Shown in pieces: positions 1-64,000 of a stretch of DNA of 64,000 bases. A model generated the notes under the pieces. The model did no database searches and had not been told where the DNA came from. It was given only the letters and a program-made list of their open reading frames with translations. Made by a program: the position numbers and the translations under genes. Source of the stretch: Cymbomonas tetramitiformis (taxonomy: Eukaryota > Chlorophyta > Pyramimonadophyceae > Pyramimonadales > Pyramimonadaceae); assembly GCA_001247695.2 (NCBI GenBank), contig LGRX02003641.1, positions 34,311 through 98,310 of the forward strand, written 5' to 3'. Position 1 is the first letter of the stretch. Every line of letters starts with the position of its first letter.

Positions 1-109
1 ATCAGATGTCGCTGCGCTGTCGCTGTCGCTGTCGTGACATCACGGCAGCGGCAGCGGCATATCGAATTGTCGATGTCGATGTCGTCATGGTCATCAGACT
101 CAGGCCCGT

Positions 110-9160: not shown

Positions 9161-9287
9161 TTCGTTTCGGAAAATCGTGTATTTATTTTTATACCCATTC
9201 CAGATATAATAAAACCGCGTAACCACGTCGGACGCCACGTACGCATGGGCCGTCGTGCACACAATCGCAGTACGCCGATTTATTCAT

Positions 9288-39132: not shown

Positions 39133-40154
39133 TTGGCTTTTGTGCCAGGGAACAATAGCCTTGCCAAGCCATTCGATTGGCATATTGTATTTATGCGTAC
39201 TGGGGCAGTGAAATGGCAATGGGCTAGGAAGGGGACTCCTGAGCCATTGACTTCGTACTATGGGGAGCAAAAGCCTGGACTTGATTATAGCTGGCAGCAT
39301 ATTATCGTCCACCCTTCTGGTGCGCTACGCCGCTGGGAGCGTAATAGGGGCGGCGGCTGGTTTCTGGAAGACGCCACTCAATTGAAGGCGCCGGTAGCGC
39401 CATTCTCATTACCGATCAGCAGCATTGGGCACGGGAACCCGACGATTGTGATTGACGATGACGAATATCGTGGAATTCCATACACGGGGCGTAAGCCTGC
39501 ACACTCAGCGCCTACGGACAGTGACGATTCGGGTACGCAGGCGCTGTGTCCTGGAGTAAGGAGAAGTTGCCAGATTCTGATGACAATGATGACGCGGGTG
39601 TCACTGACAGTAAGGAGAAGCTACCAGGTTCGGATGACAACGATGACGCGGGGTTCACATACAGTAAGCATGACATGGACACTGCCAGTCCGAAATGGGA
39701 GCCCGCCTCGCCCGAATATGATGACACCGAGGATGACGTCAGCGAGTTCGATGACTTGGTAGCTGACGATGCTGAAGAACAAGCTGAAGCTCGAAAGTTG
39801 AAGAGAATGGGACTGCAATTGATCATGGATGAGAAGGGTGAAATTATCTGGGTGCCAAAGGGCACCTCCCCGACCTCACCTGTTCAGCCAGAGGATCAGC
39901 CTATCACCGAGCAGGAGTCTGAGGCCATATCTGAGAAGAAACCATCTGGGTCAGATACTGGATTGACTTCAATGGGTGAGAATAAGGCTGGGGTGTCTGA
40001 AGAGACGAAGAGGCAACCCATGAAATATCCGAGATGTTGGACACATGAGTATGTAACTCATTTGAAATGCACCTTAAGCAGTGACAGTGATGACGAAGAA
40101 GTGCTTGACGTGGCTCCTCGTAGGAAGAAGGCAAAGACCAGCAAGGGACAATGA
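39133..40154 (+). pseudogene. Acidic protein frame upstream of gag
   Basis: Two frames join with a shift near 39535-39545. The first has a Trp/Tyr-rich globular part (WHIVFMRT, KWQWARKGT, YSWQHIIVHPSGALRRWE). The second has two 17-residue SKEKLPxSDDNDDAG repeats, an acidic stretch and a basic tail (RRKKAKTSKGQ), ending at TGA. The frame begins inside the 60-bp repeat shared with 57422-57481, so it appears to lie in the leader of the retrotransposon, like an ORF0. I recognise no family. Confidence 0.5.
39141..39200 (+). repeat. Candidate 5' LTR start
   Basis: Begins TGTGCCAGGGAACA. It differs from 57422-57481 at 5 of 60 positions, and both copies lose similarity after GCGTAC. Either the LTRs are very short or one was altered after this point. 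Confidence 0.5.
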
Positions 40155-41283
40155 AATCAACTGTCTTGATTAGGATTGTCCAAATGCAGATTCTCTGATT
40201 AGGATTTGCATAGGTGGCAGATGATGATATGCCAGCCGACATGGGACAGATCGATTAGAGATATGAAATGCGCGCCTTGAAAGTATAAGACCTGAATTCT
40301 GCCCATTTGGAGGCTGTTCTAACTTGAAGTAACTATTTGGAGGAGCTGTTGCTCAACCTGTTAAATTACTGGTCAATCTTTCCTGCCATAAAGATATTGC
40401 AATTGCTTGAATTGTAGCCTTGTTCAACTGTTTATCTAGAACATTGCAATTTTGTACACTGCAAAATTGCCGAAAAACGGACCTGTGCCCCAAGATTTGA
40501 AGCAGATTAACCTCTGACTGACCCTTGAGCTCCAGCTCGGATACACTCACGTGCTCAAGAAGTCTTCACTTGGAAGTGGTATAGTTCTGCGCCTTTTTGC
40601 CCCCTGACTTTCACCCTGCATGCAGACAGGCGACTTTCCAAAACTGTTATGCTGCAAAATGGTCAGAAAGTGGGAAAAGAAGCCGCCAGCAACTCAAATT
40701 CACCGGGATTAACAGCCAGATTGACCCGAACGGAGAGTGAAAAGTGGACCAGTGGTCAGATTGAGAAAAGAGGACCTCGGAGACAGTTTTAACGTAGACA
40801 CAAAAATTCCAGACGTTTCTTGATAGTTTTTTGTCGTTTGGAACCTGGCCCCGACACCTGGGTCCTCATAGATCGCTACATTTTAAATTGGGATAGCCAA
40901 CCGGCACGACAGAGCAAAATTAGACAAATTTGAGCCGATCAGACTACATAGGAGGAAACTGGAGCCCAGAAGGATAGTTTTCTTTTTTTATATATATTCT
41001 TTGAAGGAAAAAAATAGTCTCCAACACTGGGACCTGGCCAATTAGTCTGGATTGCTCCGGGATGGCCGCCAAGAAATTAGCCAAACTGCCGATCAACACT
41101 CAATTTTTGAAATTTGACCACCAAAAACCGCATTGCACTCTGGAAAGCATATTTCTTTGTTCACCACGCCTTCCACTGCTACGATGAAATGTTTTTCTGA
41201 GTGTTCTGGGGGAATTTGCCCAAATTGGACAGATTTGACTTCCTCAACGGTCAGATTTCCACTTTTCAACACTTAATTTCAAC
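40155..41283. other. 1.1-kb leader before gag, no gene
   Basis: No open frame of note and no clear repeats. It is probably the untranslated leader of the retrotransposon; a primer-binding site was not recognised. Confidence 0.4.
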
Positions 41284-42761
41284 ATGATGCAAAACGCCAA
41301 CACTGGACGCTCACCTCCAACGTCGCCTACGTCGACTCCCAGGCGTACAAGGGGACGACAGGCCAGGCAGCGCAGCACGAGAGGTGCTGCAGCCACTGGA
41401 ACCACTGGCAAGGGGGCGAAGGGCACCTACAAGGCGCCCTCTCCGGGTCAGCCGCCGCAGGCTGCGACAGCAGCAGGTGCGCCAAGCTTCCAGATACCTA
41501 AGAAGACGTCGACCTTGTCAGCTGCTGCTCCTGAGTTTAACAGCATGTCTCCTCTGGCTCTGGATTCTGGAACAGCTTGTGTGACACCTCCCCTGGAGGA
41601 GGCTGTAACGGTACTTAAACCGCGCCCTACTCCGCCCCTGCGTCATGCAAGAGCGTCGTCACCACGGGTGCTGACTGTTGACACCCCTGGTGCAGGGCGA
41701 AACATGAGGGCGACTCCCCAGCGGTATGTCAACTTGACCACCCCTTCCCCTGGCATTCTGCGACTGCCCGGAAGCCGCGACCTGAGCCCTCCAGCTCCGC
41801 GCCAGCGAAGCCCGCCTCGGACTCGAGACAGGACCCCGCCACCGCCGCGCTGCAGGAGCCCACCGCGGACGCGCGACATGAGTCCTCCAGCTCCAAGACC
41901 GCGAAGCCCTTTGACATCCTACCGGACTCCACACACTTGGTCTGGAGCTACGGTGATGACCGCTTCGCACGGCCAGCTGCCCACGCCATTCAGCGAGAAC
42001 GCGCTTCAGGCTGAGTCCGCGGGAGCAGCCTCTGCGGAACAACCTCTACCTGCTGGCCGACCACTCGTCTGGTATCCTGGCACGAGGTAGTGCAGTTATT
42101 GGCAGACGCCATGCCCAACTGCCACGCCATCAGCCAGCAGCAGCTATTGTATCAGTTCTGGTCTGGACTGCGACTGAAGCAAGCTGTGATGGATCGCCTC
42201 ATTGAGGATCGGTTGGATCTGCAAAGTCCAACGAATTGGGAGAGCAATCATCCCGGATCCACCGCGCTGCAGCATATCATCACTGTGGCCACCAAATTGG
42301 AGCGCAGTGAAGCTCTGACCGCAGCGCGAACCTCTCCCGCCTCGGCACCTGCGAACCGAAGTCCTGCCTGGAGGAATGGTCGCTCGTCCTCCAGACTTAA
42401 CGCCGTGCAGGACGCTGGGGAGGAAGACACTACTGACCTCGACCCCGCCGACCTCAGGGTGCAGCATGCCGTGCCGCCCAGCCCGGCGGGATTGACCAGG
42501 CCGCCACGCCGATGCTACGTCTGCAACTCTGACTCCCATTTATGGGCTAACTGCCCCGACGAGGCCAAGAAACGAGCCTGGATTGCTGACGCCCCAGCTC
42601 GTTTGGCACGCCGCCGCGCTGCAAATGAATCTCATATCGCAGCGCTGGAGACAGAATGGGAGGATTTGGAAGATGAAGCGGAAGCGCTGGAGTATTTTCA
42701 GAACGAGGAATCGGCCGCAGCGTCCTCCTCGGGTCAGCAATCTGCGGAGGAGGAGGACTGA
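41284..42761 (+). pseudogene. gag (capsid/nucleocapsid), frameshifted
   Basis: The first part is a Pro/Arg/Ser-rich N-terminus with repeated SPPAPRxRSPPRTRD motifs. Capsid-like text moves between frames around 41880-42100 (for example PFDILPDSTHLVWSYGDDRF in one, YLLADHSSGILARG in another). From about 42090 one frame reads QQLLYQFWSGLRLKQAV and a CCHC knuckle CYVCNSDSHLWANC (about 42519-42560), then an acidic C-terminus and TGA. Gag packages the RNA into particles. At least two indels break it. Confidence 0.7.
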
Positions 42762-42799
42762 GTGTCCTCCCGCCGGCGGGACGCCGGCGACAGGGCGGT

Positions 42800-45700
42800 A
42801 TGGGTAACCGCCCCTGGGCAAGGAGTACAGCCTTCGCCCACAACCGAGGGAATATCCAGCAGGATCCTCCGCCACCCCCCAACCCTCTGGCCGCTCGAGG
42901 ATATGGATTCACCTGGTCTGCCGATCAGAGGCGACAACGCCATCTCGACAGAACCAGAACCCTACGGGATGAACCCTCGTTGTCCAGTACCGCTGTTTAC
43001 ACAGCAAACCTTTCCACTGAGCAGAGCCGGCGAGAACATCACTTGGTTTCCCGGCGCCATCAGCGGTCGCCACGAAGGTCACCCACTTCGTCGCCTGAGC
43101 GCTCCAAGCCTCCCGTTATGTTCAGTGTAGATCGCTCCCTTGGAACTGGTGATCGCTGTCCGGCTCCACGACGCGAGCGTGGCGAAACGCCCCGCGTTGA
43201 CCCCACAGACCTTGGGGATGACCCTAACCCTAACCCTAACCCTAACCCTAACCCTGAGACATCAGTACTGGCAGCACTGGATGAGGATGATGGTCAGGAG
43301 GAGGAGACCCAGTGGACCTTCAACCCACTCAACACCCCCTGGCGGCAAACTCCTCGGCAGCGAGTACCGAGGAAAGCTCCGGTGGAGAGGATGCGAGCCT
43401 TGAGGCAGCGGATCCAGGATGTAACGCTACCCGCTGTTTCACACCCTCTGGACGACAGTGGGGAGGAAGGGGGTGGAACTTCAAAAACTGGCCCAGCTTC
43501 CGAACCCCCACCTTTTAAACTTCGACCTGAGGTGTTTCCTTCGACGTCTCGACCAGCAGCGTGTCCAACCTGGGCAGAGAGGGCGTCAACCCCAAGCGCA
43601 GAGCGCCCTACGAGCGCAGCGCGCAAGCGCACTGGAAAACCTCGCAGCAGAACTCCGAAGACTGTACGAGACCGACTGCAGCATGAGGCAGAGGTTACGA
43701 GGTTGGGAGATGAACCCCCAGGACTTCGAGCGGAGTCACTGGCGGATCGCACGCGCGCTTGGAGAGAGATAACGCACCCGGAGCACATGGCCTCGGCAGC
43801 GCTGGTAAAGGAGAATGAGAAATGGAGAGATGCATGGGTACCCGAAGGGTGGCGCAGATATCGCCGCCGCTGGTACAGATGGCATGGGAAGGTCACCCCT
43901 GACCTGACGATAACCGAAGGAGCAGTTCAGCTATCTCTGGAGACCGAGTGCGGTACTATCCCAGGTTCTGGTGGAGATGTAGGAATTCCAGACGCCTGGT
44001 GCAGTCTATACCGGGTGCACCAATGGAACCAGCGAGAAAGGGAAGCTGCGGAAGAGGCGGCTCACCTGGCCCTACCATCAACAGCAAGTGATTCATTCTC
44101 CCTGGACTCAGCGGAACCATCAGAGGCGAATCCAGCGACAACTCTGGATTTGACCTTATCTCCATCCAGTTCTCAGCCCGCAACTTCTGGGGACATTTCA
44201 GACCTCGAGGACTCCCAGCGGTCGCTCAACTTCACGCAGCAGTTGATGGAGCGACAGCTGGCCATCGCCAGATCGGAGAACAATCCAAGTGTGCTGACAA
44301 CGGTGACAGAAGGAGTGGAGCCGACTCCCCTGAAAACCATCCAGGAGGAAACCCACCTGGAACTGCTACTAACCATTCAGAAACAGCAACGCCATCGTCT
44401 GCGGCCGATCCTGGAAGGTAATGAAGCAGTGGCAGCACCAGCGAACGTCACCGACGCTCAGGCGGCACCGCGGGAAGAAGAAACCCCCTCTTTCACTCCA
44501 AAGTCCGAACCAGAAGATAGCTCTGGGGAGGAAGAGGAGGAAGAGATTTCCATCCAACCTCTTCGCTCTTACCCTCTGGAAAGCCGCACGCAGAGCCGCG
44601 CCAGACGACGCGCTCAAGGACAGGAGCGACGCGCTAAGGAGCGGCAGCTACAAGCAGATCGCGACCTGGAAGGTGGATGGTACTTTGGTCCAGATCCTCG
44701 TTCGCAGCCTGCACCACCGCGCACAAGACCTATCCGGTCTAAGCAGCGCGTACCTTTGCATCACCCAGTGCGAGCAGCCATCTGTGCACATCTGCGACGC
44801 GATGGTCAAGTAATGTGGAACCAGGACAGTCAGCTGACTGCGATTCGGGACAAAGAGGGAACGCTGCTATTGGTGTTCTGGGCCTTGCTGAAGGGACAGC
44901 GAGTGCGCGTGCTGGTGGATTCGGGGGCCTCGGATGAATTCATCTCCAGTGAGTGCGTCAAGAGATTGAACCTCACAGTTCGCGCTAATGGAATGCCGCT
45001 GAACGTTACCCTCGCGGATGGGTCAGTGCAGACCTCTGCGCAAGTCGCTTACGGCAAGCTGACCGCCGAGACTTCAGAGGGGACTTACTCCGAGGTCATC
45101 AAGATGCGAGTACTTCCTCTGGGCATCAAGGCGGACATTGTACTCGGAGGAAGGTGGTTGAGACACCTCTCGCCGGTCACGCTGGACTATGATGGGTGGG
45201 GATCAGTCAAGTTTCGCCATCATGGCAAATCCGTGCGGATACGGGGATGTTCGCCGGGGCGTAGCTCCACACGCAAAGGCGAGAGAACCGCGATGGCTCT
45301 GGAACCGATGGTAATGTTATCAGCGGCCCAAGCGACCAAGGAGATCAAAGCCTATCGGCGCAGATATGCGGGAATGGACAGTGCCGCGACACCCCACGAC
45401 ATCTTAGTGGCCTATGCGACACCTTTGGTAGGGACTTCGATGTTATCAGCGATGGCCACCAGCAAGAATTTGGAGGACCCTTCAATCTCCCCCGAGTGGA
45501 GAAAGAAGTTTCAAAAGCTGATCGAGTCCTTTTCACCTCGAGTAATTCGCGAAGCGCTGCCCAACTTTGACGCCCTGCGAAAAGATGAAGTGGCCCATGT
45601 GAGACTGCAAGAGGGATGGAATGGTATCGCGCCCGCTAAGAGGCCCTATAAGATGTCCATGGTGGAGCTGACTCAACTGCGAGAACGCCTGGATGAACTC

Positions 45701-47716
45701 CTGAGCAAGGGCTACATCAGGCCTTCCTCAAGTCCGTTCGCTGCACCAGTGCTGATGGTTCCCAAGCCTGGGAAACCTGAAGTACTCAGAATGGTCTGCG
45801 ACTTCCGAGCCATCAACAGCCTGACCGTCAAGGACAAATATCCACTTCCCGACATTCAGCAGTTGTTCGACTCCATGCATGGGGCCAAGTACTTCTCCTC
45901 CTTCGATGCAGTAGATGGGTTCTGGCAGATGGCTATGGCGTCTGAGGATGTGGAAAAGACGGCGTTCACTTCTCCCTATGGCTCGTATGAGTGGTTGGTG
46001 ATGCCCATGGGGTTGACCAACAGTCCTTCTTGCTATCAGAGACGCATGCAGCGAGCTCTGGGACATCTTCCTTTTGTAAGAATATTCCTGGACGACTGTA
46101 TCCTCTTCAGCAACACCTTGGAGGAGCATCTTTCCCATCTCCAGCAATTTCTCGAAGTCTGTGAGAACCAGGGCATCTACCTCAAGGAGTCTAAGTGTCA
46201 ACTACTGCAGACCCAGATACGCTTTCTGGGGCACGTTATCTCACGGGAAGGAAGTCAACCTCAACATGACAAGTTGGCCGCCATCAGGGACTGGCCCGCT
46301 CTGGAAAACGCCACGCATGTGCGCCAATTTTGGGGTTGGCTGGGTACTACCGGCGGTACATGCTGGGCTTCTCTGAAGTAGCACAACCCTTGACTCAGCT
46401 CACCAAAGGGGATGTCGCTTGGCTATGGGGACCCATGCAGCGTTGGGCCTTCGAGGAGATTAAGAAGGCGCTATGTTCTTCACCCACTCTGGCGCTACCC
46501 GATATGAAAGCGGCGGCCGAAGGACGGCATCCTTTCGTGGTACAAACTGACGCCAGTGGAGTGGCGCTGGGGGGAGTACTGATGCAAGACGTAGGAAATG
46601 GATTGCAACCTATCGCCTTTGAGAGCAGACAGTTTAATGGAGCCGAGCAGAACTACCATGCTGGCGAAAGAGAACTCTGCGCTCTCCATCACTGCACTAC
46701 ACAAACTTGGCGACACTACCTCATCTGGACCGAGTTCCAATTGCAGGGTGACCATAAGCCCCTAGTCTGGTTAATGGCACCCGGACAACCTCTCAGCCGA
46801 CGCCAAGCCCGATGGTACATGGATCTAGTGGAGGTAGGGGTACCCGAGATGGAGTACATTCCTGGGGCGCTACTCTGGGTTCCAGACGCTCTGTCCAGGC
46901 GACCCGACTACAAGGAAATTTCCGCGAGAGAAGGACTGGTAGAAGCTGGCTTTGTGCACCCGGTTACTGGGAAACCGCAGCGACCTCCTTCAGCCGCAGA
47001 CACTGCCAACAAGTTTCGACCTGCCGCTGGTAAAGAGTCTCGCCAAGGACGTGCGCCCAGCTGGGAGTGGTAGATCCCAACAAGTTGAAGGAGCGCAAGT
47101 CCAACAGCGCCAAGACCAAAGATCCGGAACCAGTTCTCGCGTACAGTGGGACTCTCACCTGGATGGACTCCCCTCAACTCTGGATGGACGCCTTACATAC
47201 CCTGCAGCTGGCCGAAACTGGGTACGAGGAAGCAACCCTGGCAGTTCAGACGCGCTCTGGCAAACTGACAGCATCCTCGCCTCCTTCTCCCAGGAAGAAC
47301 CCTGTTGATTACTCAGCAACGCCGAAGTGCAGCGAGGCCTCAACCAGACTCCTGGAGCCCAGCGACCGACAGGACTGGAAGTTCCGTGCGGACATGTTCG
47401 ACTTCTTGAGTCAAGAATATGGACCTTTCGAGGTGGACGCCTGTTGCGACTTGGGAGGAAAGAATCGTCAGGTCAACCGCTACTGGACGGACTGCTTGAA
47501 GGAAAACTGGCGAGGGTTGAACGTCTGGTGCAATCCTCCCTTCTCCTCCAACCATTTGACCATCGAGGCCGTACTGAGGAGATATGTGGAAGAATGGTGT
47601 CTGGACCCTGAGAATACTTCAGCTCTCTTTGTCCTTCCTGACTTTCAGTCTCGCATGCCACAGTGGCGGCAGTTGTTCAGATCTGCGGGAATGAGAGTGG
47701 AGTACATTATTCATAC
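42800..47716 (+). CDS. pol, 5' part: protease, RT, RNase H, Dam-like domain
   Basis: 42800-46381 is open for 1,193 codons: a long Pro/Glu-rich linker, aspartic protease VLVDSGASDEFIS (about 44911), then RT with FRAINSLTVKDKYPLPDIQQ, FDAVDGFWQ, PMGLTNSPSCYQ and the active site FLDD (about 46087). A missing T in a T run near 46330 shifts the frame; RNase H follows (QTDASGVALGG, GERELCALHH, DHKPLVW, PDALSRRPD). Two more slips occur near 46990 and 47055. The last part (about 47360-47716) reads DWKFRADMFDFLSQEYGPFE, VDACCDLGG, VWCNPPFSSNH and FVLPDF, matching phage-type N6-adenine (Dam) methyltransferases including the catalytic NPPF. The element at 47717 interrupts this domain near its end; the frame resumes at 54695. 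Confidence 0.85.
43221..43255. repeat. Telomere-like CCCTAA repeat inside pol
   Basis: About 5.7 tandem CCCTAA units (TTAGGG on the other strand), read in frame as Asn-Pro repeats in the linker upstream of the protease. Confidence 0.9.
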
Positions 47717-47739
47717 CCCTACAAATTAGTGGCCTTTTC

Positions 47740-48050
47740 GCACGCGTGGAAAACCGTCCGTCCGACGCGTGGACAGCGTACGGACACCCTATGGACGCTT
47801 TTTTTGCTAAATCCACACGTGTGAAATTGTCTAATTTGTAAAAGTGATGTTCATACGGTGTCCATACGATAAATCCACACGTCGTCCATACGTGCGCCTC
47901 CGTGTGGACGACGTATGCTAGTTTACCTGATTTTATTACGCGTGTGGACGCTCCGTACACTGCCCGACCGTATGGACAGGTGCCGTCCATACGCATGAAC
48001 CACTGGAAATTGTTGTCCACACGTGCGGACTGCGAGAAATGCCGCTTCTA
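47740..48050. repeat. Left subterminal palindromic repeats
   Basis: Variants of GTCCATACG, GTCCGTACG and CGTGTGGAC in both orientations. The consensus approaches the palindrome GTCCATACGTATGGAC. Confidence 0.7.
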
Positions 48051-48835
48051 CCCCTCCTCAGCCATATGGACAGCGTGGGGACGTGTCCCTGGACCGTACC
48101 GACGCGTACGGACGACGTGTGGACGGGCGTATGGACAGTGTGAGGCCCGTGCCGTGCCACTCTTTTGCGCTTGTCCGCACGTGTGGACACCCATTGCAAC
48201 CGGGCCAGGGTGTACCCGAGCACTGCTTGCCCCCTCCTCAGCCATGTGGACACCATGTGGACGTGTCCCTGGACGTACCAATGCGTACGGACGACGTGTG
48301 GACGGGCGTATGGACAGTGTGAGGCCCGTGCCGTGCCACTCTTTTGTGCTTGTCCGCACGTGTGGACACCCATTGCACCCGGGCCTGGGTGTACCCGAGC
48401 ATTTCCTGCCCCTTCATCAGCCACATGGACACCATGGGGGCGTGTCCCTGGGTCGTACCGACGCGTACGGACGACGTGTGGACGGGCGTATGGACAGTGT
48501 GAGGCCCGTGCCGTGCCACTCGTTTGCGCTTGTCCGCACGTGTGGACACCCATTGCACCCGGGCCTGGGTTTACCCGAGCATTTCCTGCCCCTTCATCAG
48601 CCACATGGACACCATGGGGGCGTGTCCCTGGGTCGTACCGACGCGTACGGACGACGTGTGGACGGGCGTATGGACAGTGTGAGGCCCGTGCTGCGCCACT
48701 CGTTTGCGCTTGTCCGCACGTGTGTACAGCCATTGCACCCGGGCCTGGGTGTGCCCGAGCGTTACTTGCCCCTTCATCAGCCATATATGGGCACCATACG
48801 TAGGGGCGTGTCGCCGAACGAACCCATGCGTACGG
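48051..48835 (+). repeat. 180-bp tandem array with subterminal motifs
   Basis: CTCAGCCAT/CATCAGCCA landmarks at 48051, 48231, 48411, 48591 and 48771, exactly 180 bp apart. Each unit contains several GTRYGGAC motifs. One partial unit is present at 58618-58735 in the second copy of the family. Long open frames on both strands are by-products. Confidence 0.9.
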
Positions 48836-49235
48836 ACGACGTGTGGACAGACGTATGGGAGATCGGAATTCGCCAATCCTTACGTATGGACGTCGAAATT
48901 GGAGCGAGTTCATTGAATGAAACACGCGTGTGGACACATGCATTCGCACGTGTGAATGAGGGTTTGCCGCATGAATGAGCGGAATCAGGCGTGTGAATAC
49001 AGGTGTCCGTACACACGGTTTATTTACATATATAATACATCGTGTATCATCCGCAATCATCTGAATCAGAACTACTACGGTCATCCTCGCTACTACTGTT
49101 ACCATCGAGTTCACGGAAGAAATCTGCCTTGCGATCCAACTACACAACTTGCAAGCAATAAGTTCGTCGTCGAATGGCCAAAGGGGCAGCATTTTCTTTG
49201 TACCGGGCAAGCCAAGCCGGCATGAAAGGAACATC
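48836..49235 (-). pseudogene. Transposase C-terminal remnant
   Basis: Close match to 58738-59154, the terminal part of the last exon and 3' flank of the transposase at 58952-63605. It stops where the internal deletion begins. Confidence 0.7.
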
Positions 49236-49638
49236 CTGAATTACCTTCCGCACCTTGTTCGAGTTCTTGTACTTTTGCTACAGAAGTTTCTTCGCTAGCG
49301 GTCCCATATTAGTCGCGAGCGCTTCAGACCCCGTACCCACTTGATTGCACCGGTCTTTGCGTTGAGTGGCAGTCTTCATGGTGATGGTTTGTCTGCAAAG
49401 AATTCCCATTGTAAGGCATACACTGGATGGATGGTCCATAATAGGCCGTCCATTCGGTGTCCGTGCGCCGTCCGTCTGGACGGAACAAGGTGTTCACCCG
49501 TATGGAACAACAGAAACTCGCAAACGACCTACAATCTTACCCGCGAGACGCATCGCAGCAGATCTTCGATCGTTTGCATTTCTGGCTGGGGGTGCGATAA
49601 CCCACGATCGATGGACCTTCATCTTTCGCGCATAGTTG
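49236..49638 (-). pseudogene. Transposase middle-exon remnants
   Basis: Similar to 60929-61319: the exon with the FLARGP-like complement around 49260-49330, an intron with GTCCG motifs, and the start of the next exon. The rest of that exon continues at 50714-50790 after the hAT-type insertion. Confidence 0.65.
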
Positions 49639-50713
49639 GCTACTACCCAAATTCATGGTCCTACCACAAGGACCGATGGGCAATTGCGGTTTCGATCACT
49701 AAATCGACTACTTGAGGCACAGGCAACATTTGCACATGATATTTATGAGTTAAATGAATTTTATTTATTATAGTGGCGGCCCCCATGAGACTTTAGGTAT
49801 GTGGTTGAACGACACGCTTTAGGGGTGTAATTTCACCAAAAGCTTGAAGAAAATGGTGGTCCTACCACAAGGACCACCGTTATTTTGAGTATTAGGAGTC
49901 ACATGAGGGGCTCACGGTGATGCTCATGGTTATACATCTTGAGTTTATGACCAAATAAGATAACTGAATCGGTTACTTCGCACCCTCATCATCATTTCCG
50001 CTCTATTTCAGCATGGCGCATGTTCAACACAATGCAAATTCCGACTTTAGTGAATTTCGGACTTTAGAAATTGGCATTCATCCATTCTAAAGTGTACACG
50101 CCAGTCGAAAAATAAGATATTTGGATGATGTTAGACTTTCAGAAATTCGCAATACATATATACTTGAAGATTTGATGTGCCGCACACACCAACCTTGCGA
50201 TATATGCCCTCTAGCAAGCAATTATGATGGCTGGATGGTCAGCTCGCGTGACCACTGTTTTAGGGGGGAAACCAACGAGCCAATATATTAGAGGGGAAGC
50301 CACGAGCCAACGAGCCAATATATGCATTCCAACCGGGCCTACCGCCCAAATATGATTGGGACATATGTATAGGTTCAATTTGATGGTATCCGCGCAGGTG
50401 TAGTGTTGATATATGATTGGTAAAAAATTATTGAAGATGAGTCACTAATTTGCCACATTTTGAATGTTCCAAAAAATCTGTTTTGAAAAATTTGAGCGTA
50501 GAGGTTTGAAATGCGTTCGCCATGGATATATGGGATGGATATAGGCCAAACCAGCGTTCGAATAAATTAATATAGGACCTATATATACCACCTTTCATTG
50601 GTTAGACACCACAAATCACGGGAGATGGCCAATTAAATTATCGGAACAATCGTCCTCGTGGTAGGACCAAATCGTCGATTTCGTCCTACCGACAAGGACT
50701 GCGGGGCAGTAGC
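49639..50713. mobile_element. 1,075-bp hAT-type non-autonomous element
   Basis: Flanked by an 8-bp duplication CATAGTTG (49631-49638 and 50714-50721). The ends are GCTACTACCC and (inverted) GCTACTGCCC. The related sequence at 61307-61325 has CATAGTTG once without the element, a clean empty site. Subterminal palindromes GGTCCTACCACAAGGACC recur at both ends. No open frame of note. An 8-bp duplication indicates hAT. Confidence 0.8.
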
Positions 50714-50879
50714 CATAGTTGCGTGTGGTCGGTCCCCAACCATCACCAAAAATCACGCAGTGAACCCCGTGAATCAGGTTGTACAAGATATGCATGGGTT
50801 GACAGATTTTTAAGGTCCTAATTTGCACTATTGGGTCATAAACATGATATGTTTAATTGCTAGATGCATTTGGAAGCCA

Positions 50880-51150
50880 TCTAGTAGGTGTACGCGGCTT
50901 CGGGCACTCCGGTCCTTGTGAAAGGACCGGCATTTTTATTTAATTTTCGTCGGTACTACCCCCGCGTTTCATTCCTCTCAAGCACAATCATGCCCATATC
51001 GAGTATAGCACCCAAAAGAGGTTCGGAATAAATTCTTGGACACCCAAATATGGTGTCAAAACACTCAAATATCAACTATATCGAAAAAACGCGGCAGATA
51101 GCCCCAAATCACTTCGGTCCTTGTGACAGGACCGTGATTTTGGGCAGTAG
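50880..51150. repeat. Second GGTCCTTGTG palindrome pair
   Basis: CGGTCCTTGTGAAAGGACCG at 50908 and CGGTCCTTGTGACAGGACCG at about 51115, followed by TTTTGGGCAGTAGCC like the right end of 49639-50713. It may be a relative of that element, but I found no duplication. Confidence 0.4.
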
Positions 51151-51195
51151 CCATATATCGATACAATTATCACATATCCGAGATATGGATATACC

Positions 51196-51265
51196 GCGCC
51201 TTGTTTCGTTGTGAAGAGAATTTACTTTTCAGGAGGTCGATGTATAATGAGAAGCTCGGCCACTT
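51196..51265 (-). pseudogene. Displaced transposase exon fragment
   Basis: Resembles 60248-60315 of the intact gene (GGAGGTCGAT, then AGCTCGRCCACTTCGA) but lies out of order, so the element is rearranged as well as deleted. Confidence 0.5.
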
Positions 51266-51270
51266 CGACC

Positions 51271-51590
51271 GCGCCAGCGTACCCGCCAGCGTACCGCGCC
51301 AGCGTACCGCGCCAGCGTACCGCGCCAGCGTACCGCGCCAGCGTACCGCGCCAGCGTACCGCGCCAGCGTACCGCGCCAGCGTACCGCGCCAGCGTACCG
51401 CGCCAGCGTACCGCGCCAGCGTACCGCGCCAGCGTAGCGTACCGCGCCAGCGTACCGCGCCAGCGTACCGCGCCAGCGTACCGCGCCAGCGTACCGCGCC
51501 AGCGTACCGCGCCAGCGTACCGCGCCAGCGTACCGCGCCAGCGTACCGCGCCAGCGTACCGCGCCAGCGTACCGCGCCAGCGTACTGCGC
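51271..51590. repeat. 13-bp minisatellite, ~24 copies
   Basis: Unit GTACCGCGCCAGC with one short variant near 51428. As 13 is not a multiple of 3, every frame cycles through the same 13-residue repeat and stays open on both strands. No gene is inferred. Confidence 0.95.
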
Positions 51591-51599
51591 AAAATGACA

Positions 51600-52300
51600 T
51601 TTTGGAGTTCGTACGTTATCCGTACGGCGTCCGTACGGCGTCCGTACGGCGTTCGTACGCTCGGCTTAGGTTTCTAGCGTATGGACAACGATGTTCATAC
51701 GTTCCATGTCACATCTGCGCGCATGCACCGACACTTACGTCAAGGTTGTAAACTCGTCGTACACACGTTAGATTATGGATGGACGCTATGTGTTGTCCGT
51801 GTGGATTCCGCAAGCATTCTAGTCCATACGGTTCCATGAGAGCGGTTGTCCACACGCGTGGAAACGTCAGTTAGCTGTCCATGTGGGTTTTGTACGAATT
51901 TTCGTATGAAATGGCACATTTTCGTACGTCTGCATGTCCCATGGACGGTCTGTCCATGTGGTTGGAAATAACCACACATTTTGAGCAGTCCGCATGGATG
52001 GATAGCAAAAGCACACGGTGAATTACGTGTTTTCGTACGACTCTATAGTGTTTGTACGTTTTTTGTTGAAAACTGTCCACACGCGTGGAAACGTCAGTTA
52101 GCAGTCCATACGCTGTCCATTCGAGTTAGCCTTGACTGTCCGTATGATTCATGTCCCATGGACGGTTTTTTTACACGCACGGACGCAAAAAAAAGCTGAC
52201 CTCATGGAAAATAAAAACATAAAAACCGTATGGACAGCGTACGGTTTCCCGTACGGACAGCACATGGAATTGAAATTCGATCGGGAATACCGTATCGAAA
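51600..52300. repeat. Segment shared with the other family member
   Basis: 51650-52030 matches 63645-64000 almost base for base, then continues with GTCCATACG-type repeats. This confirms that 47717-54691 and 58618-64000 belong to one family. Confidence 0.8.
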
Positions 52301-52309
52301 AATACGATT

Positions 52310-53590
52310 AAAAAATCGCGAACGCGTGACACATGCGATGCGATGGGCAGTATTAGTGACACCCGCACCCCCCGACTGTGTCACCCGTGTCACATAGCGA
52401 AACAGAGTGACACTTAAAGAGTGACAATTAAAATAAACAGAGTATCCAGTAATCGTCGAAGGATCTTAAATCGATCTGCGATTTCTCCCGTCCGTTGACG
52501 ATTTCTCCGTTCGGTTGACCACTTCAAATAAGTTACCGATACAGTAAGGCTCTGAGGCAAAAAGCAATTTTGGAACTGAAGCAACCCCGCCACGGCAGCA
52601 CACGTATGCCTTTTTGCTGTGCTTTTTTGTTTTTGGCATATTTTATTTGCTTTCATTTATCACAGCGAGCACCCTGTGTTGAGGTGAGCAGTCTCGTGTG
52701 AGCGCCATTGCGCGGTGCTCCCAGCTCGATAGCATCCTTAATACTAGCTCGGCGTGAGGGGGTGGATTCCGCGAGTTCCGTTATCAACGGACTAACGCGT
52801 GTTGGTTCGAATCCAACCTACTCCGCAGTGACAGTTATCGACTTTTATTGAAGTGCTCTTTTGCTGAATGGGGTTGTTGATATTTGGCTGATTCGAATAC
52901 AATGTATTCCGCAGTGCGTGACTTGTTAATTCCTTATGTGCTCAATCACTGAATGGGCTTGGTGGTGTTTGGTTGTATGTGCGCAGCAGCCAAGCCGACG
53001 CGCGGTGCCATCGTAGGTCTCCAGCACTATTAAGAACAGGATAGTTGTCCGGTACGATAATGTGGTTTTCGCAACCTCTGTTACTGCATATCAGATTTCG
53101 TGTTTACTCACGTTTGTGAGACGGGCATCTATTGACGTGGGTTGTGCACACTGCAGGTACCATTGGAGCCCGGATCGCGCCATCCCACACCCGCACATGC
53201 GCTCTTTTTCGCAGGCCAGGCAGGCCAAGCGATATCATAGATACATGCGCACGCAGGATTTGCGGAGCCCCCAAGGAAGCGATCTGTAGAGCCCTTAAGT
53301 AATAGTTCTGTAGAGCCCTTAAGTAATAGATCTGTATATGTGTATGTAGAGTACTTAGTTTATTTAGGAAAGTAAACATAGTTTAATGTAAACGTGTTTT
53401 TGCTATATGTGTTTGCTTTTAAAAAATGTACTGCTTTCGAACATGTTAGTTTGCCTGCTCGCATACCCGCACTTCACTCCGTCACAAAGCATTTAATATT
53501 CATTTAACTGGCAGTAGCATCCGCATATACACAGCATTGCCTGCGTTGTGAAATAGAATAGAAAGGTGCACAGGCACAAACCCTGAAACA
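52310..53590. other. Unassigned stretch within the 7-kb element
   Basis: Lacks the GTCC palindromes found on both sides, so it may be a further insertion. It has clustered GTGACAC words at 52325-52430, a tRNA-like structure at 52759-52825 and a 30-bp duplication near 53280-53330. No ends were identified. Confidence 0.4.
52759..52825 (+). other. tRNA-like structure without a D arm
   Basis: GGGGTGG (52759-52765) pairs over 7 positions (two G-U) with CTACTCC (52818-52824). A perfect 5-bp T stem GTTGG/CCAAC encloses the loop TTCGAAT. An anticodon-like arm TTCCG-TTATCAA-CGGAC lies between. There is no D arm. A weaker relative of the T arm follows at about 52891-52913. It could be a degenerate tRNA, an organelle-derived tRNA copy or a SINE head. 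Confidence 0.35.
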
Positions 53591-54690
53591 CACACGTACT
53601 GTATGCCGTAAGACTCCTTGTCCAACCGTATGGACCACTCGGTCCATACGGGTGGAGTGAGCGAAGTGAGCCCAATCGTATGTAGTCCATACGGGTGCAA
53701 TATTCAAACAATATTTCAATATATCCGCACGTGTGGACTTGGTAAAGTGCAAGTCCATACGTGTGGTCACCTTCGTCCACGCGCACGGATATCGCCGTTC
53801 GTGCGGGTTGACTGGTTGAAATTGCTGTTCATACGTATGGACGGTATCGTCCATATGCATGGAATTGTATTATTATAAGCTATCCACGCGTACGGACACC
53901 GACGTCCATACGCGTGGATCGGTAAAATATGTTGATAAAACCATCGTCCACGCGTGCGGACACCTACGTCCATCCGGACGAATCACTGTCCGCACGTATG
54001 GACGCACATAATCACGCGTGTGGATATATTTACTATTCGTATCCTTAAGCTCTTTTAGCAATGTCTTTGTCCAAACGTGCGGACACCTACGTCCATACGG
54101 ATGAAAGACCGTCCACACGTACGGACGTAGGTGTCCATACGCTTGGATATGTTGATTGTTCGTATCCGCATGTTCATATGTACATGCTTATGTCCATACG
54201 TACGGACGGCTACGTCCATACGTGTGAACATGCCGATCCATACGGGTAATAGGCCCCTCCATACGTATGGATGCCTTCGTCCATACGTGCGGAATAGAGA
54301 ATTCTGATCGTCTATACGACTGTCCATACGGTGTCCATCCGGTGTCCATCCGGGTGTCCATACGGTGTCCATGCGGTCTTCCATACGGTGACCGTGCGGT
54401 TGAATAGTGCCTCTGTCCATGCGTATGGACACCATGTGGACATGTGTTCTGTCCATACGGTGTCCATACGATATCCGTACGGTGTCCATACGAAATCCTT
54501 ACGGTGTCCATGGGACATTTTGGGTCACTTTCGTATGGACACCGTCGTCCGTATGGTTCTTACATATGCATCAAGGTTTCGCCAGAAATCTGTTCAGACC
54601 GTCCATACGCTTGTCCATATGGGTCCTTACGATGTCCATACGCTGTCCATATGCAAATCCACACGGATGAATGGGGCAATAATTGGTAGG
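53590..54690. repeat. Right subterminal palindromic repeats
   Basis: Over 1 kb of GTCCATACG/CGTATGGAC variants, such as GTCCACACGTACGGAC at 54111 and TCCATACGTATGGA at 54257. The many short open frames read VHTYG-like text in all phases and are not genes. Confidence 0.8.
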
Positions 54691-54694
54691 GTAC

Positions 54695-57341
54695 CCATGA
54701 CGCTCAAGGAGAACCTGTGCAGATGTTCGCTGCCCCGGATGGAGTCCTTCTGGATCTCCCTTGGCCCCTGCTAGTGGTGTACGCTCCGCCAGCTCGACAG
54801 CGTGTCAAGCGGGAAAGGAAGACGAGTTCCCCTCCTCCTATCGTGCGTACTGGAGAAGCGGCCAGCGTTCGAGACCTGCATCAGCAGATATCAGGAGGTC
54901 AGTTTCTCAAAGCGCTGTAAGCGGAATATGGGCGACCTGGCCCCCTACAGACTTTAAGGAAAGAAATCCAAGAAGCTCCGCATCAACGCACTCGTGACTT
55001 CTGCGTGGTGGGAAATGTGTTGTGGAGGGTGAGCGCTGGACGCTATCAGTTGGTACTGGGAGAAGATTCACCACTCCGTGAGGTAGTGCTGCAAGAGGCG
55101 CACGCCTCTGTTTCAGCTGGACACGCGGGCAGGGACAAAACTCTGGAACGAGTCCTGCGACGCTTCTGGTGGAAAGGGGCAGCAGAAGATGTGGGACGCT
55201 GGGTTTCATCTTGCGCTATCTGTCAAGCGGTGCGACCGAGAAATTCTTACCCGGATGGATTGCTGAACCCACACACTATTCCTACGCGACTATGGCAAGT
55301 GGTCAGTGTGGACTTTGTTACTGGACTGCCAGTCACGGCGCGGAATCACGATGCCTTTGCTACTTTCACGTGTAAGCTCAGCAAAATGGTTCACATCATC
55401 CCGTTGAACTTCCAGGACAGCTCCGCTGAGGTTATAGCTCGAATCTACTTCGACCACATCTGGAAACTACATGGCACCCCTATGAAGATTGTCTCTGACC
55501 GCGACCCTCGTTTTCAGGATGCTATGTGGAAGGAATTGATGAGACTTATGGGAACCAAAGTGGCCTCCACTACGCCTTATAACCCTCGTTCGGACGGACA
55601 AGCTGAACATACCAACCGCGTGGTAGAAGACATGCTGAGGTCCTTCGTAGGCAGCAATCCAGAGGACTGGGATTTGTGGTGTGCCAACGTGGAGTTCGCC
55701 ATAAACGATACGCGGAGCGATGTAACCGGCTTTACCCCTTTTGAGTTGGTCTTGGGGCACTCGTCTATGTCGCAACTGGACTTGTTCCTGCAAGCCGCTG
55801 CTGGACAACACTCCAGGCGCAAGGGTGGAGAAGGTACTGCCCACGAGATGGCTAGTAAATTCGCGGCTCAACTAGAGGACGCCCGCACTAAGCTAGAACT
55901 GGCACAGCAACGCCAGCGACATCAGTTTGACCAGCGTCACACCGCCAAATCCTTTCAGTTGGGAGACTTGGTCTGGGTAGATGCCAAGCATCTCACGGAA
56001 AATATCATGAACCGCGAATCCTTCAGGAAGCTGGGACCTCGCTGGCACGGGCCCTTATCCATCACCGAGAGGTTCTTCAGTAACCAGCAGCGAGAGCTAC
56101 CCGAAATTGACAGAGGTGCTCCGGTGGCTTATCGGCTCAAGTTACCCCCTAAATGGCGTATCCACGATGTTTTTGCGCAGCATCGCCTCAAGGAATACCG
56201 CACTGCAGATGAAGCTTTTGCGCTGCGTCAGCAAACCCCTACTCCTGCCAAGGTTCTCGTGGATGGACAATCCCAGACACATGTGTCTAAGATTTTGGCT
56301 CGAAGAGTGAAACCTGCGAGAGGAGGTAAGGAAGTAGAAGAATTTCTGGTTCGCTGGACTGGGTACTCTAATGCTCATGACTCCTGGAAGACTCGCGAGT
56401 CGTTGAACTACGGGGGTGAACTCGAACAGCTCACAGAGTTTGAACAACTGAGACTATCCCGAGAAGGACAAGCCCGCGAAAAAGCCTTACAGGAGGTCAG
56501 AATGCAGCGGAAGCAAAGGCGGGAACGCGCCAGAGCTCTAACCTTCCTGGACACCGCTGATGAAGGGGAACCTCTTTCTCTGGACAACTGCCTACCTTGG
56601 GAACAATACTGTCGCTCCTCTGACGCCTTTGTGACGCATCTGGCTCTTATGGACTCTGTGGTCTCGACACGCGAGTTGCGACTACTAGTACTTTTCAGTG
56701 GTACATGTAGTGTGGAGAGAAGTTTCCTGTCATGTTATCCGAAGAGTACCGTGGTCACCGTAGATCATGATCCTCGCTGGCAACCTACCTACGCTGAGAA
56801 GGTTCAGGACTGGGACTTCAAGCGTTACGCGCCTGGTTACTTTGACGTCATCTGGGCTAGCCCACCGTGCACTGAATACAGTCAGGCTAAGACCACAGGG
56901 GTGCGACAACTGCGACAGGCTGATGCCTGTGTACGCCGTACGCTCCAAATCTTCGACTTCCTCAAACCCAAGCATTGGTTTATGGAAAATCCGATGGGCA
57001 GGTTTCCCTTTGCGCTGCGATTTCGACCTGTAGTTCGTCGGTTACCCACTCCGTTGTATTGCTCTTACTGTATGTATGGCACTGGCTACCGCAAGCCTAC
57101 TTGCATCTGGACACAGTCGCCTCCTCCAGTGGACCTGCGGTACTGTACGATGGATACTCCTTGCCTTCACCAACAGACGCTGGGATCACATCCGGAAACT
57201 GCTCAACTTGGGCCTCATCCTGGGCAACAAGGAGCGGGAGTCTCCGCTGCTGTATACCCTCTGCCCTCTGGATTGCTTCGCCAACTCTTCGAGCACCTGT
57301 TCGATCAGAAAAGCATATCACGCATCCATAAGCATGGCTGA
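54695..57341 (+). CDS. pol, 3' part: integrase, chromodomain, C5-methyltransferase-like domain
   Basis: Continues the pol frame after the insertion. The first part completes the Dam-like domain (MFAAPDG, DLPWPLLVVY); an in-frame TAA lies at 54918-54920, after which the frame is open to TGA at 57341. Integrase: zinc-binding H-H-C-C (HASVSAGH ... CAIC) and the D, D, E residues in VDFV, SDRDPRF and DGQAEHTN. Then GPRWHGP and a chromodomain (HVSKILARR, EFLVRWTGYSNAHDSW, about 56275-56420), which usually directs integration to modified chromatin. The C-terminal domain (about 56674-57150) has LFSGTCSVERSF, TVDHD, ASPPCTEYS and WFMENP. These match C5-methyltransferase motifs I, II, IV and VI, with ENP in place of ENV. 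No target-recognition domain is obvious. Confidence 0.85.
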
Positions 57342-57407
57342 TCTGTGTCTGGATCTTAGCTGCTGTACAAATGACTCTGAGTTATCATCTCTTTGTACTA
57401 ACAAGCT

Positions 57408-57420
57408 AAGAGGGGAGGAG
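57408..57420 (+). other. Polypurine tract
   Basis: AAGAGGGGAGGAG directly before the repeat at 57422, as expected for second-strand priming next to a 3' LTR. Confidence 0.55.
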
Positions 57421-57421
57421 T

Positions 57422-57481
57422 TGTGCCAGGGAACACTAGCCATGCCAAACTATTCGATTGGCATATTGTATTTACGCGTAC
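57422..57481 (+). repeat. Candidate 3' LTR start
   Basis: Begins TGTGCCAGGGAACA and is about 92% identical to 39141-39200. The sequence after 57481 is unrelated to the 5' copy. Confidence 0.5.
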
Positions 57482-58617: not shown

Positions 58618-58951
58618 CTGCGCTTGTCCGCACGTGTGGACAGCCATTGCACCCGGGCCTGGGTGTGCCCGAGCGTTGCTTGCCCCTTCATCAGCCATAT
58701 ATGGGCACCATGGGGGCGTGTCAACGAACGAAATCATGCGTACGGACGACGTGTGGACAGACGTATGGACGATCGGAATTCGCCAATCCATACGTATGGA
58801 CGTCAAAATTGAAGTTTGTTGAAACACGCGTGTGGACACATACATCCGCGCGTGTGGATAAGGGTTTACCCGTATGGATTAGCGGAATCATGCGTGTGAA
58901 TACAGGTGTCCGCGCACATACGGTTTATTTACATATATAATACATCGTGTA

Positions 58952-63605: not shown

Positions 63606-64000
63606 ATTTGGTCGTCCGTGCGTCGTCCGTACGGTGTCCGTACGCCCGGCTTAGGTTTCCAGCGTATGGACAACGATGTTCATACGTTCCATGTCACATC
63701 TGCGCGCATGCACCAACACTTACGTCAAGGTTGTAAACTCGTCGTCCACACGTTAGATTATGGATGGACGCTATGTGTTGTCCGTGTGGATGCCGCAAGC
63801 ATTCTAGTCCATACGGTTCCATGATAACGGTTGTCCACACGCGTGGAAACGTCAGTTAGCTGTCCATGTGGGTTTTGTACGAATTTTCGTATGAAATGGC
63901 ACATTTTCGTACGTCATTATGTCCCATGGACGGTCTGTCCATGTGGTTGGAAATAACCACACATTTTGAGAAGTCCGCATGGATGGATAGCAAAAGCACA
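63606..64000. repeat. 5' flank and subterminal repeats of the larger copy
   Basis: GTCCGTACGG motifs at 63615-63650, then the block shared with 51650-52030. It presumably holds the transposase promoter; no TATA-like element was singled out. Confidence 0.55.

Follow-up and report, generated by a model that had tools for sequence, protein, structure and literature searches.

The window, the whole stretch of 64,000 nucleotides from Cymbomonas tetramitiformis that was analysed, contains a chromodomain-bearing LTR retrotransposon of Ty3 type, with two methyltransferase domains added to its Pol polyprotein. Near-identical proteins also identify this green alga as the host. The order of domains in pol is protease (PR), reverse transcriptase (RT), RNase H (RH), a Dam-like N6 domain, integrase (INT), SH3/chromodomain and a compact C5 domain. 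The initial annotation had described a Ty3 chromodomain element with both methyltransferase-like domains, with which Pfam, PHROGs and single-frame genome copies agree, but the extent that it gave (47360..57150) was too short: the element begins at about 39140 and reaches at least 57481. Its features are as follows.

39140..39200, + strand: start of the 5' LTR (61 bp, 91.8% identity in direct orientation to 57421-57481; remainder of the LTR not delimited)
41284..42761, + strand: gag-like region, two ORFs in different frames (41284-42090 and 42090-42761)
44888..45163, + strand: aspartic protease (Asp_protease_2, E 1.6e-8; gag-asp_proteas, E 1.7e-8; residues 697-788 of ORF 42800-46381)
45758..46240, + strand: reverse transcriptase (RVT_1, E 3e-32)
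46426..46830, + strand: RNase H, its frame differing from that of RT in the window copy (RT_RNaseH, E 8.4e-29)
47358..47717, + strand: Dam-like N6-methyltransferase domain, first part, columns 3-122 of 150 (PF05869, phrog_111, family profile)
47717..54691, no strand assigned: nested transposon-like insert of 6,975 bp splitting the Dam domain (TSD TAC, imperfect terminal inverted repeats)
54693..54779, + strand: Dam-like domain, last part, columns 122-150 of 150 (family profile, E 2.4e-7; match to the uninterrupted paralogue P0047)
55005..56015, + strand: integrase with H2C2 zinc finger and DDE-type core (Integrase_H2C2, E 5.5e-19; rve, E 1.7e-5, under its cut-off)
56085..56486, + strand: SH3 (Tf2-1-like) and chromodomain (SH3_Tf2-1, E 1.7e-9; Chromo, E 3.8e-7 at 56280-56414; family profile)
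56670..57296, + strand: compact C5-cytosine-methyltransferase domain with SPPC, ENP and YRKPT (phrog_757, family profile, AlphaFold model with Foldseek)
57421..57481, + strand: start of the 3' LTR, with a purine-rich tract just before it (repeat match stops at 57481)

The Ty3-type order of protease, RT, RNase H and integrase is present by Pfam, by the family profiles and in the genome copies, and the integrase region matches the Ty3 Gag-Pol of 7q5b with E 1.4e-33. Since a retroviral-type integrase is found instead of a tyrosine recombinase, membership of DIRS is ruled out. The chromodomain lies after the integrase and scores 30.4 bits (PF00385) against a cut-off of 25.1. In the second gag-like ORF, a zinc-knuckle-like motif was matched weakly and under the cut-off (PF21890, E 0.0013). 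The LTR evidence in the window is limited to the 61-bp LTR start found twice, at the end of which the repeat match stops, and no tRNA primer binding site was located in the window.

The window copy is decayed, with two frame changes in pol, gag in two frames and the insert in the Dam domain. The insert is bounded by a 3-bp TSD, and its terminal inverted repeats agree at 15 of the first 20 bases. Its flanks join in frame, reading ...VEYIIHTHDAQGEPVQMFAAPDG... compared with ...VEYIIPTHDAQGEPVQMFAAPDG... in P0047, and the two Dam halves had thus been rightly joined across it. Motif I of the C5 domain is GTC in this copy, while it is GTG in all 15 copies compared.

Other copies in the Cymbomonas genome

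Both methyltransferase domains belong to one element. Twenty further copies were fetched from the Cymbomonas genome, with a choice that leaned to long open frames. It was found that a single open frame covers Dam, integrase, chromodomain and C5 in 15 of the 20, and all six domains, protease/RT and RNase H included, in 13. Among the 15 single-frame copies, GTG, SPPC and ENP occur in every one and NPPF in 14, the pattern not being found in the remaining copy. P0035 (2077 aa) and P0041 (1846 aa), each a single ORF, also encode the complete series PR-RT-RH-Dam-INT-SH3/chromo-C5, and in 14 of 56 proteins compared, Dam and C5 each cover 100 profile columns or more. The genome search with C5 gave 150 scored matches, including the window, from 8151 first-look candidates, all of them 98-100% identical and with 0 stops; that with Dam gave 150 scored matches from 9110 candidates, 149 of which are stop-free.

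A nested insertion and frame changes do exist in the window, and nesting or misassembly that places separate elements side by side could in principle mimic the two-domain combination. Such an artefact is ruled out by the single-frame copies at 15 places of the genome, by the database proteins and by a marine contig with the same order. The domains are therefore not drawn from separate elements, the case that the initial annotation had named as its own refutation.

The two methyltransferase domains

The motifs lie where they were first reported, NPPF at 47532-47543 and SPPC at 56859-56870. For each domain, a family profile was made from 29 relatives, with the window and its near-identical copy P0047 excluded, and the six-frame window was scanned over open stretches of at least 30 aa with E up to 10. 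The Dam profile matched at 47358-47717 (columns 3-122, E 3.6e-63) and 54693-54779 (columns 122-150, E 2.4e-7), and the C5 profile at 56670-57296 (columns 2-210, E 1.6e-104). Neither matched elsewhere in the window, and the reversed window gave 0 matches for either.

The Pfam search proposed for the Dam region gave a clear match above the curated cut-off (PF05869, E 2.2e-10, 40.9 bits against 28.1), which spans 72 of 169 columns, as the insert interrupts the domain in the window. The narrower equivalog cut-off of TIGR01712 was not reached by this region (29.4 against 97.05). In PHROGs, the region matched phrog_111, 'DNA methyltransferase', with E 5.9e-12. NPP[FY] is present in 27 of the 33 family Dam domains with at least 100 profile columns, and the other 6 retain much of the remaining domain. 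On the integrase tree, the 3 rows without NPP[FY] that are present require at least 3 separate changes, and N6 catalysis can therefore not be indispensable in all lineages.

Structure prediction, which had also been suggested, gave a Dam model (pLDDT 84.8, pTM 0.81) that matches adenosine methyltransferases. The human cap-specific adenosine methyltransferase, which methylates N6, takes Foldseek ranks 1 (E 1.2e-4, TMq 0.63) and 2 (E 2.3e-4, TMq 0.58); the zebrafish enzyme is at rank 5, the best place of the 23S rRNA enzyme RlmJ is rank 11, and the DNA enzyme CcrM is at rank 27 (E 0.01). Only 3 chains reach E 0.001. It is possible that the Dam-like domain acts on RNA, placing N6-methyl on the transcript of the element or on its cap, which would help translation or packaging or let the RNA escape decay, and leaving the DNA to C5 alone. 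The cap enzyme heads the Foldseek list with CcrM far below it, and the protein, in which the domain comes after RNase H, is one that encounters the element RNA. However, the sequence places the domain with the phage Dam families (PF05869, phrog_111), and fold neighbours do not tell the substrate. When the Dam profile was compared with PDB sequences, 7 chains were found at E up to 1, the best at 0.38 and none named methyltransferase, and so the right comparison may be missing. We consider this RNA-directed role unlikely.

For the C5 domain, C5-methyltransferases are recognized by motifs I (FxGxG), IV (PPC) and VI (ENV/ENP), and SPPC is present in 33 of 33 family C5 domains with at least 100 profile columns. 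The proposed PF00145 search was weak in the window copy (E 0.0018, 18.2 bits, under the cut-off of 22), but the identity of the domain is clear from PHROGs (phrog_757, 'DNA methyltransferase', E 1.8e-15 over 171 residues) and from the fold. The same cut-off is also missed by the C5 domains of P0041 and P0035 and exceeded by that of the related P0027. The AlphaFold model (pLDDT 84.8, pTM 0.83) has the C5-methyltransferase fold, with Foldseek matches to DNMT3B (E 3.6e-8, TMq 0.52), M.HaeIII (E 7.7e-8, TMq 0.48) and DNMT1.

At the sequence level, the domain resembles small phage-type enzymes. In the profile search of PDB, the best chains are DNMT2, chains named DNMT1 also occur, and no chain named DNMT3 was found at E up to 1. 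On this profile search and on the phage-type relatives, the domain would not belong to the DNMT3 class. The fold comparison alone ranks DNMT3 first for the C5 model, an order that does not decide the class.

Conservation and a marine relative

Between P0041 and P0035, the conservation values are 0.67 for Dam and 0.66 for C5, compared with 0.79 for RH, 0.72 for INT, 0.60 for the chromodomain, 0.55 for PR_RT and 0.39, 0.45 and 0.15 for the linkers. Dam and C5 are about as conserved as integrase and RT, and appear to be kept by natural selection. Among the 15 copies, pN/pS is 0.12 for RH, 0.22 for Dam, 0.14 for INT, 0.13 for the chromodomain and 0.05 for C5, the last being biased as copies had been ranked by C5 protein similarity. 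The Dam value does not fall below the 0.19 measured in 14 copies for the RH-Dam linker, and between Dam and INT the linker shows 0 nonsynonymous differences among copies; therefore, the within-copy values alone do not single out the Dam domain. Between two subfamilies, the Dam domain has pN 0.103 at a saturated pS of 0.87 (126 pairs). The methyltransferase domains appear to be co-inherited with the integrase, with distance correlations of r 0.72 for Dam-INT (17 rows), 0.88 for C5-INT (20) and 0.77 for Dam-C5 (14); the permutation test gave 0 of 2000 for each.

A diverged relative, L007, comes from a marine contig of a different source, where a single frame holds RH-Dam(NPPY)-INT-chromo-C5 in the same order. 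Its identity to P0041 is 39% in Dam, 38% in INT, 36% in SH3/chromo and 48% in C5, compared with 15-21% in the linkers. Its Dam domain scores 27.5 bits against PF05869, just under the cut-off of 28.1. Between pol and gag, at about 4029, it has TGGTATCAGA, which we take to be the complement of the initiator tRNA end. From this relative, the two-methyltransferase architecture appears to be old.

L007 retains both catalytic motifs, which argues against both domains being kept as nucleic-acid or SAM-binding modules (a cDNA chaperone or target recognition) and not as enzymes. The Dam domains that keep their body without NPP[FY] and the altered motif I of the window's own C5 would fit such modules; the invariant SPPC, with GTG in 15/15 and NPPF in 14/15 of the fetched copies, would not, and we regard this account as improbable.

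Possible roles and known elements

It is plausible that the element writes and reads chromatin marks at its own copies, as the initial annotation suggested. The reading that we prefer, with a probability of about one half, is that C5 is active as an enzyme and methylates the cDNA of the element itself or its freshly inserted copy, while the N6 domain most likely adds a second mark to that nucleic acid. Being fused to integrase and chromodomain, C5 would act in cis, at the integration complex as well as at the chromatin that the chromodomain selects. A likely advantage is that new copies would receive the host chromatin state at once, being tolerated and hard to counter-select; alternatively, the cDNA may be shielded from base-sensitive nucleases. 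N6 would be the more dispensable of the two activities because several lineages lost NPP[FY] yet retained the domain. More doubtful is an extended form, in which a self-contained writer-reader would put two base marks on hundreds or thousands of its own copies and shape much of the host methylome.

The domains might also defend the host cell against DNA viruses, a role that the available part of PMC6338049 proposes in a general way for accessory domains of retrotransposons; Dam- or Dcm-type enzymes in prokaryotic defence modules are described there as well. Giant-virus and polinton-like insertions are reported in the host genome (PMC10675990, in part). We consider defence very unlikely, as the fusion to integrase and the inheritance with the replication core point to a role for the element.

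Why an element carries an enzyme type usually used to silence it is an unsettled question. With at least 150 matches of near-identical C5 in the host alga and 13 of 20 fetched copies open from protease to C5, self-marking of copies by a mobile element becomes directly testable in Cymbomonas, and the natural variants without NPP[FY] offer a built-in comparison.

Retroelements with one or other methyltransferase were known before; here both types adjoin a chromodomain in one polyprotein. The initial annotation knew of no such element, and none was found among the matches listed in the full-text literature, which covers few subscription papers or preprints. The following comparisons hold for the portions of the cited papers available to us. 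KnitGypsy-Dnmt3 of Klebsormidium nitens (de Mendoza et al. 2018, PMC5890265) likewise has a Gypsy-type pol with a fused C5 domain in multiple copies, with Ka/Ks < 0.2, but its C5 is DNMT3 whereas ours belongs with the small phage-type enzymes (phrog_757); section 9 describes no N6 domain for it, and the word chromodomain is absent from the main text. SymbioDIRS-Dnmt3 and SymbioLINE-Dnmt of Symbiodinium (PMC5890265) also encode C5-methyltransferases, but they are tyrosine-recombinase DIRS or LINE and not integrase LTR elements. DIRS with Dam-like domains (PMC5890265, PMC6338049) share the N6 domain in the polyprotein but have a tyrosine recombinase, with no C5 or chromodomain reported alongside in those portions. 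Sola1-1_Ec32 of Ectocarpus (PMC12477816) is likewise an algal transposon that carries a gene for a methyltransferase (N4C or N6A); unlike our element, it is a DNA transposon with the methyltransferase as a separate gene and a ParB-like domain.

In the same host, the 'Chlamyvir'-type chromoviruses (PMC10675990) share the Ty3 pol and chromodomain and are possibly the same elements, although 'methyl' occurs 0 times in the main text. Burns et al. 2015 (PMC5741210) reported coding regions for chromodomain, RNase H and cytosine DNA methyltransferase on three Cymbomonas scaffolds of >10,000x coverage. In the part available, these are not described as one element and an N6 domain is unmentioned; they are very likely pieces of the two-methyltransferase family.

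Organization of the retrotransposon in the window

A Ty3-type LTR retrotransposon spans approximately 39140-57481 of the window, and its domain order from 5' to 3' is LTR start, gag, protease (PR), RT, RNase H (RH), Dam-like domain, integrase (INT), SH3/chromodomain and C5-methyltransferase. The gag is represented by a weak zinc-knuckle match. This copy is decayed: pol contains two frame changes, gag lies in two frames, and the Dam domain is split by an insert.

39140-39200: LTR start, repeated at 57421-57481 (91.8% identity over 61 bp)
47717-54691: nested insert of 6,975 bp splitting the Dam domain, bounded by imperfect inverted repeats and a TAC TSD

The initial annotation joined the two Dam halves across this insert, and the join was found to be correct. 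The flanks are in frame across the site and match P0047 (CYMTET_53375), a near-identical Cymbomonas paralogue without the insert, which is 97.7% identical to the window over 217 residues of the left, Dam-bearing piece; its identity to the RT-side piece and to RNase H is 95.4% and 99.6%, respectively. The methyltransferase-like regions were also recovered where the annotation had placed them (both Dam halves and the C5 domain) by profiles that excluded the window and P0047, while the same profiles gave no match in the reversed window.

Some minor features were observed as well. Telomere-like CCCTAA repeats at 43222-43255 lie within the open pol reading and are translated as an NPNPNP run. A pair of overlapping ORFs (209 and 202 aa) occupies 39133-40154, between the LTR start and gag, and a Pfam scan of one of them (39546-40151) found nothing at E up to 0.01. 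Rfam at the gathering threshold found nothing in the window.

Both methyltransferase domains in one element: copies and conservation

The assignment of Dam and C5 to a single element is confirmed by database proteins and by genome copies. P0035 (2077 aa) and P0041 (1846 aa), two relatives from the database searches, are each a single open frame encoding PR-RT-RH-Dam-INT-SH3/chromo-C5. The first two protein searches gave 56 proteins; 14 of them cover both Dam and C5 over 100 or more profile columns each, and others are shortened on one side or the other. The Cymbomonas genome (851.7 Mb, 25,745 contigs) was also searched for copies. For C5, 150 of 8151 first-look candidates were scored, including the window's own, and every one shows 98-100% identity to the window and lacks stops. 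For Dam, 150 of 9110 were scored, with 81-99% identity to P0041 and 149 without a stop. Twenty copies were then taken from the C5-search places, leaning to long open frames. Open copies with both domains do exist in the host genome: Dam, INT, SH3/chromodomain and C5 share one open frame in 15 of the 20, and all six domains do so in 13, while the other five are truncated, frame-split or have no Dam within the stretch fetched. Separate elements or chance motifs are therefore ruled out by the single-frame copies, together with the window-free profile matches and the same domain order in L007, a diverged marine relative. According to passages of a 2015 paper (PMC5741210), coding regions for a chromodomain, RNase H and a cytosine methyltransferase lie on three Cymbomonas scaffolds covered more than 10,000x, and a figure of 21x is also given there for scaffold coverage; such depth would fit a family numbering at least several hundred copies.

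Both domains are conserved. Between P0041 and P0035, the identities of Dam (0.67) and C5 (0.66) are near those of INT (0.72) and the chromodomain (0.60), with RNase H above them (0.79) and PR_RT (0.55) and the linkers (0.39, 0.45 and 0.15) below. Among the 15 copies, pN/pS, which rests on few differences (1 to 5 synonymous per pair), is 0.12 for RH, 0.22 for Dam, 0.14 for INT, 0.13 for the chromodomain and 0.05 for C5, the last being biased because C5 similarity was used to rank the copies. The linker values are 0.19 for RH-Dam (14 copies), 0 for Dam-INT and 0.40 for chromo-C5, and so Dam is not lower than its adjoining linkers among copies. Two further pN/pS values, 0.003 (30 top C5 loci) and 0.041 (within P0041-like Dam copies), were set aside as evidence, since protein identity had been the ranking criterion for these loci. 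In a comparison of two subfamilies, the Dam pN is 0.103 over 126 pairs, and no dN/dS value is given because pS (0.87) is saturated; this comparison used 9 of 10 Dam-search loci, with at least 95% of columns, and omitted one of the 15 window-like copies owing to its other length. The corresponding figure for RNase H came from a single pair and was discarded. The deeper comparison is the stronger sequence evidence for constraint on Dam, namely this low pN and the 39% identity of Dam in L007 against 15-21% in the linkers.

The domains are also inherited together. The Dam, C5 and INT distances correlate across proteins (r 0.72-0.88; 0 of 2000 permutations), as expected if they travelled together. 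Counting domains that span 100 columns or more, those of the window among them, SPPC (C5 motif IV) is kept in all 33 C5 domains and NPP[FY] (the N6 catalytic motif) in 27 of 33 Dam domains. P0011, P0039, P0043, P0045, P0048 and P0049 lack NPP[FY] with much of the Dam domain kept; of these, P0011 and P0049 retain a complete C5 domain. On the INT tree (20 labelled rows), the three rows without NPP[FY] need three changes. Due to this repeated loss beside an invariant SPPC, the predicted C5 activity looks indispensable and the predicted N6 activity optional in some lineages. Abandonment of Dam after C5 capture is possible in some of them; as a general rule it is ruled out by the retention of NPP[FY] in most domains and the low subfamily pN.

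A marine relative and the kinship of the two domains

When prokaryotic genome contigs were scanned with the C5 alignment, one locus (L007) was confirmed among 14 candidate stretches. Its contig is filed under a Verrucomicrobiaceae marine MAG, and since L007 is a Ty3-like element, we read the contig as misbinned eukaryotic DNA. An open frame of 1259 residues holds RNase H (part), Dam, INT, chromodomain and C5 in the Cymbomonas order. The Dam domain has NPPY and matches PF05869 just below the cut-off (E 2.9e-6; 27.5 bits against 28.1), the chromodomain matches PF00385 above it (E 9.3e-6), and C5 matches phrog_757 (E 2e-17). The identities to P0041 are 0.55 for RNase H, 0.39 for Dam, 0.38 for INT, 0.36 for the chromodomain and 0.48 for C5, compared to 0.15-0.21 for the linkers. 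Protease and RT matches lie at the other end of the 13.45-kb contig (G001:C81, loci L013/L014), and its two ends share 106 bp at 98% identity. Between pol and gag there are a single LTR-like stretch and a TGGTATCAGA site, the candidate primer binding site. Either two near-identical LTRs were collapsed in assembly or the contig is a one-LTR circle, and both readings would favour a recent copy. In the gag-side ORF (4109-6667), PF10275 gives a weak otubain-like hit under its cut-off (E 0.0047), which may point to a retroelement with an OTU-type protease.

Sequence comparison places the Dam-like domain with the phage Dam group (PF05869, phrog_111), and the C5 domain with a group of small proteins of phage type (phrog_757). 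Against phage genomes, C5 shows 26-33% identity to 12 records (e.g. Bacillus phage BM15 and Haloferax tailed virus 1), and the Dam piece shows 38% over half its length to 3 Gordonia phage records. Scans of viral contigs for DNA relatives yielded one locus in one scan, five loci at 30-40% identity in another, and none in two more. In the PDB, the C5 profile matched DNMT2 and chains labelled DNMT1, and no chain named DNMT3 at E up to 1. With the phrog_757 kinship, this leaves a DNMT3 capture as in Klebsormidium unsupported by sequence. The C5 model (pLDDT 84.8, pTM 0.83) matches the folds of DNMT3B, M.HaeIII and DNMT1 (E about 1e-7 to 1e-8, TMq about 0.5). For the Dam model (pLDDT 84.8, pTM 0.81), the best fold match is a cap-specific adenosine methyltransferase (E 1.2e-4, TMq 0.63), with RlmJ and CcrM weaker; given this nearest fold, the domain may possibly act on RNA.

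A quick C5 tree, built from 140 rows without bootstrap and without an inferred root, gathers all 17 Ty3 domains of the Cymbomonas kind in one 29-row set (SH-aLRT 95), among free-standing small C5 proteins, small here meaning that they showed no further domain. The C5 domains of four other retroelement proteins (P0022, P0024, P0027 and P0028) are placed elsewhere. From this scatter, retroelements have probably acquired this C5 type more than once.

Known elements, other arrangements and neighbouring repeats

From this anatomy, a C5 enzyme fused to integrase and chromodomain would modify the DNA of its own element around integration; the N6 domain would act on the same nucleic acid or on the element's RNA. 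Tolerated silencing, cDNA protection and use of host readers are candidate gains for the element. Passages in PMC5890265 and PMC6338049 describe DIRS retroelements with Dam-like domains and C5-bearing retroelements (Symbiodinium LINE and DIRS, Klebsormidium Gypsy); a 2025 paper (PMC12344493) mentions DNMT3 for LTR elements of the Copia type and for DIRS elements, and a chromodomain Ty3 element in Cymbomonas is noted in a passage of PMC10675990. Among the matches listed from open-access full-text literature, there was no element with both methyltransferase types and a chromodomain.

Other arrangements were seen in metagenome proteins. P0028 (1110 aa, 19 members) has the pol order Dam-like, protease (weak), C5, RT. 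Its Dam-like match is weak (phrog_111 E 3e-5, WANPPF; no match to PF05869) and its C5 matches phrog_757 (E 1.5e-8); it may represent a second pairing of N6-type with C5-type domains that arose independently. P0056 (1083 aa) carries a Dam-like domain (PF05869 E 1.5e-8) ahead of PR, RT, RNase H and an integrase zinc finger, whereas in the Cymbomonas family it lies between RNase H and integrase. An SH3/chromodomain followed by the same C5 type was found among the 120 matches listed in Cymbomonas P0062 and in 10 metagenome fragments (P0068, P0069, P0087, P0088, P0094, P0098, P0103, P0104, P0122 and P0124), and on the C5 tree these 10 do not group with the Cymbomonas set.

Other repeats also occur in the window. 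The insert at 47717-54691 and the region 58619-64000 have several stretches in common (about 77-96% identity, up to 547 bp), and the latter contains a Transposase_21 (tnp2) match at 61724-62656 on the minus strand (E 1.5e-8). With this match and the 3-bp TSD, both resemble CACTA/CMC-type transposons, one of them perhaps non-autonomous. Positions 1-9240 hold a repeat with 3,080-bp spacing, whose three copies are 100% identical across the 300 bp shown; near 8.5-10.8 kb it recurs as partial copies in inverted orientation.
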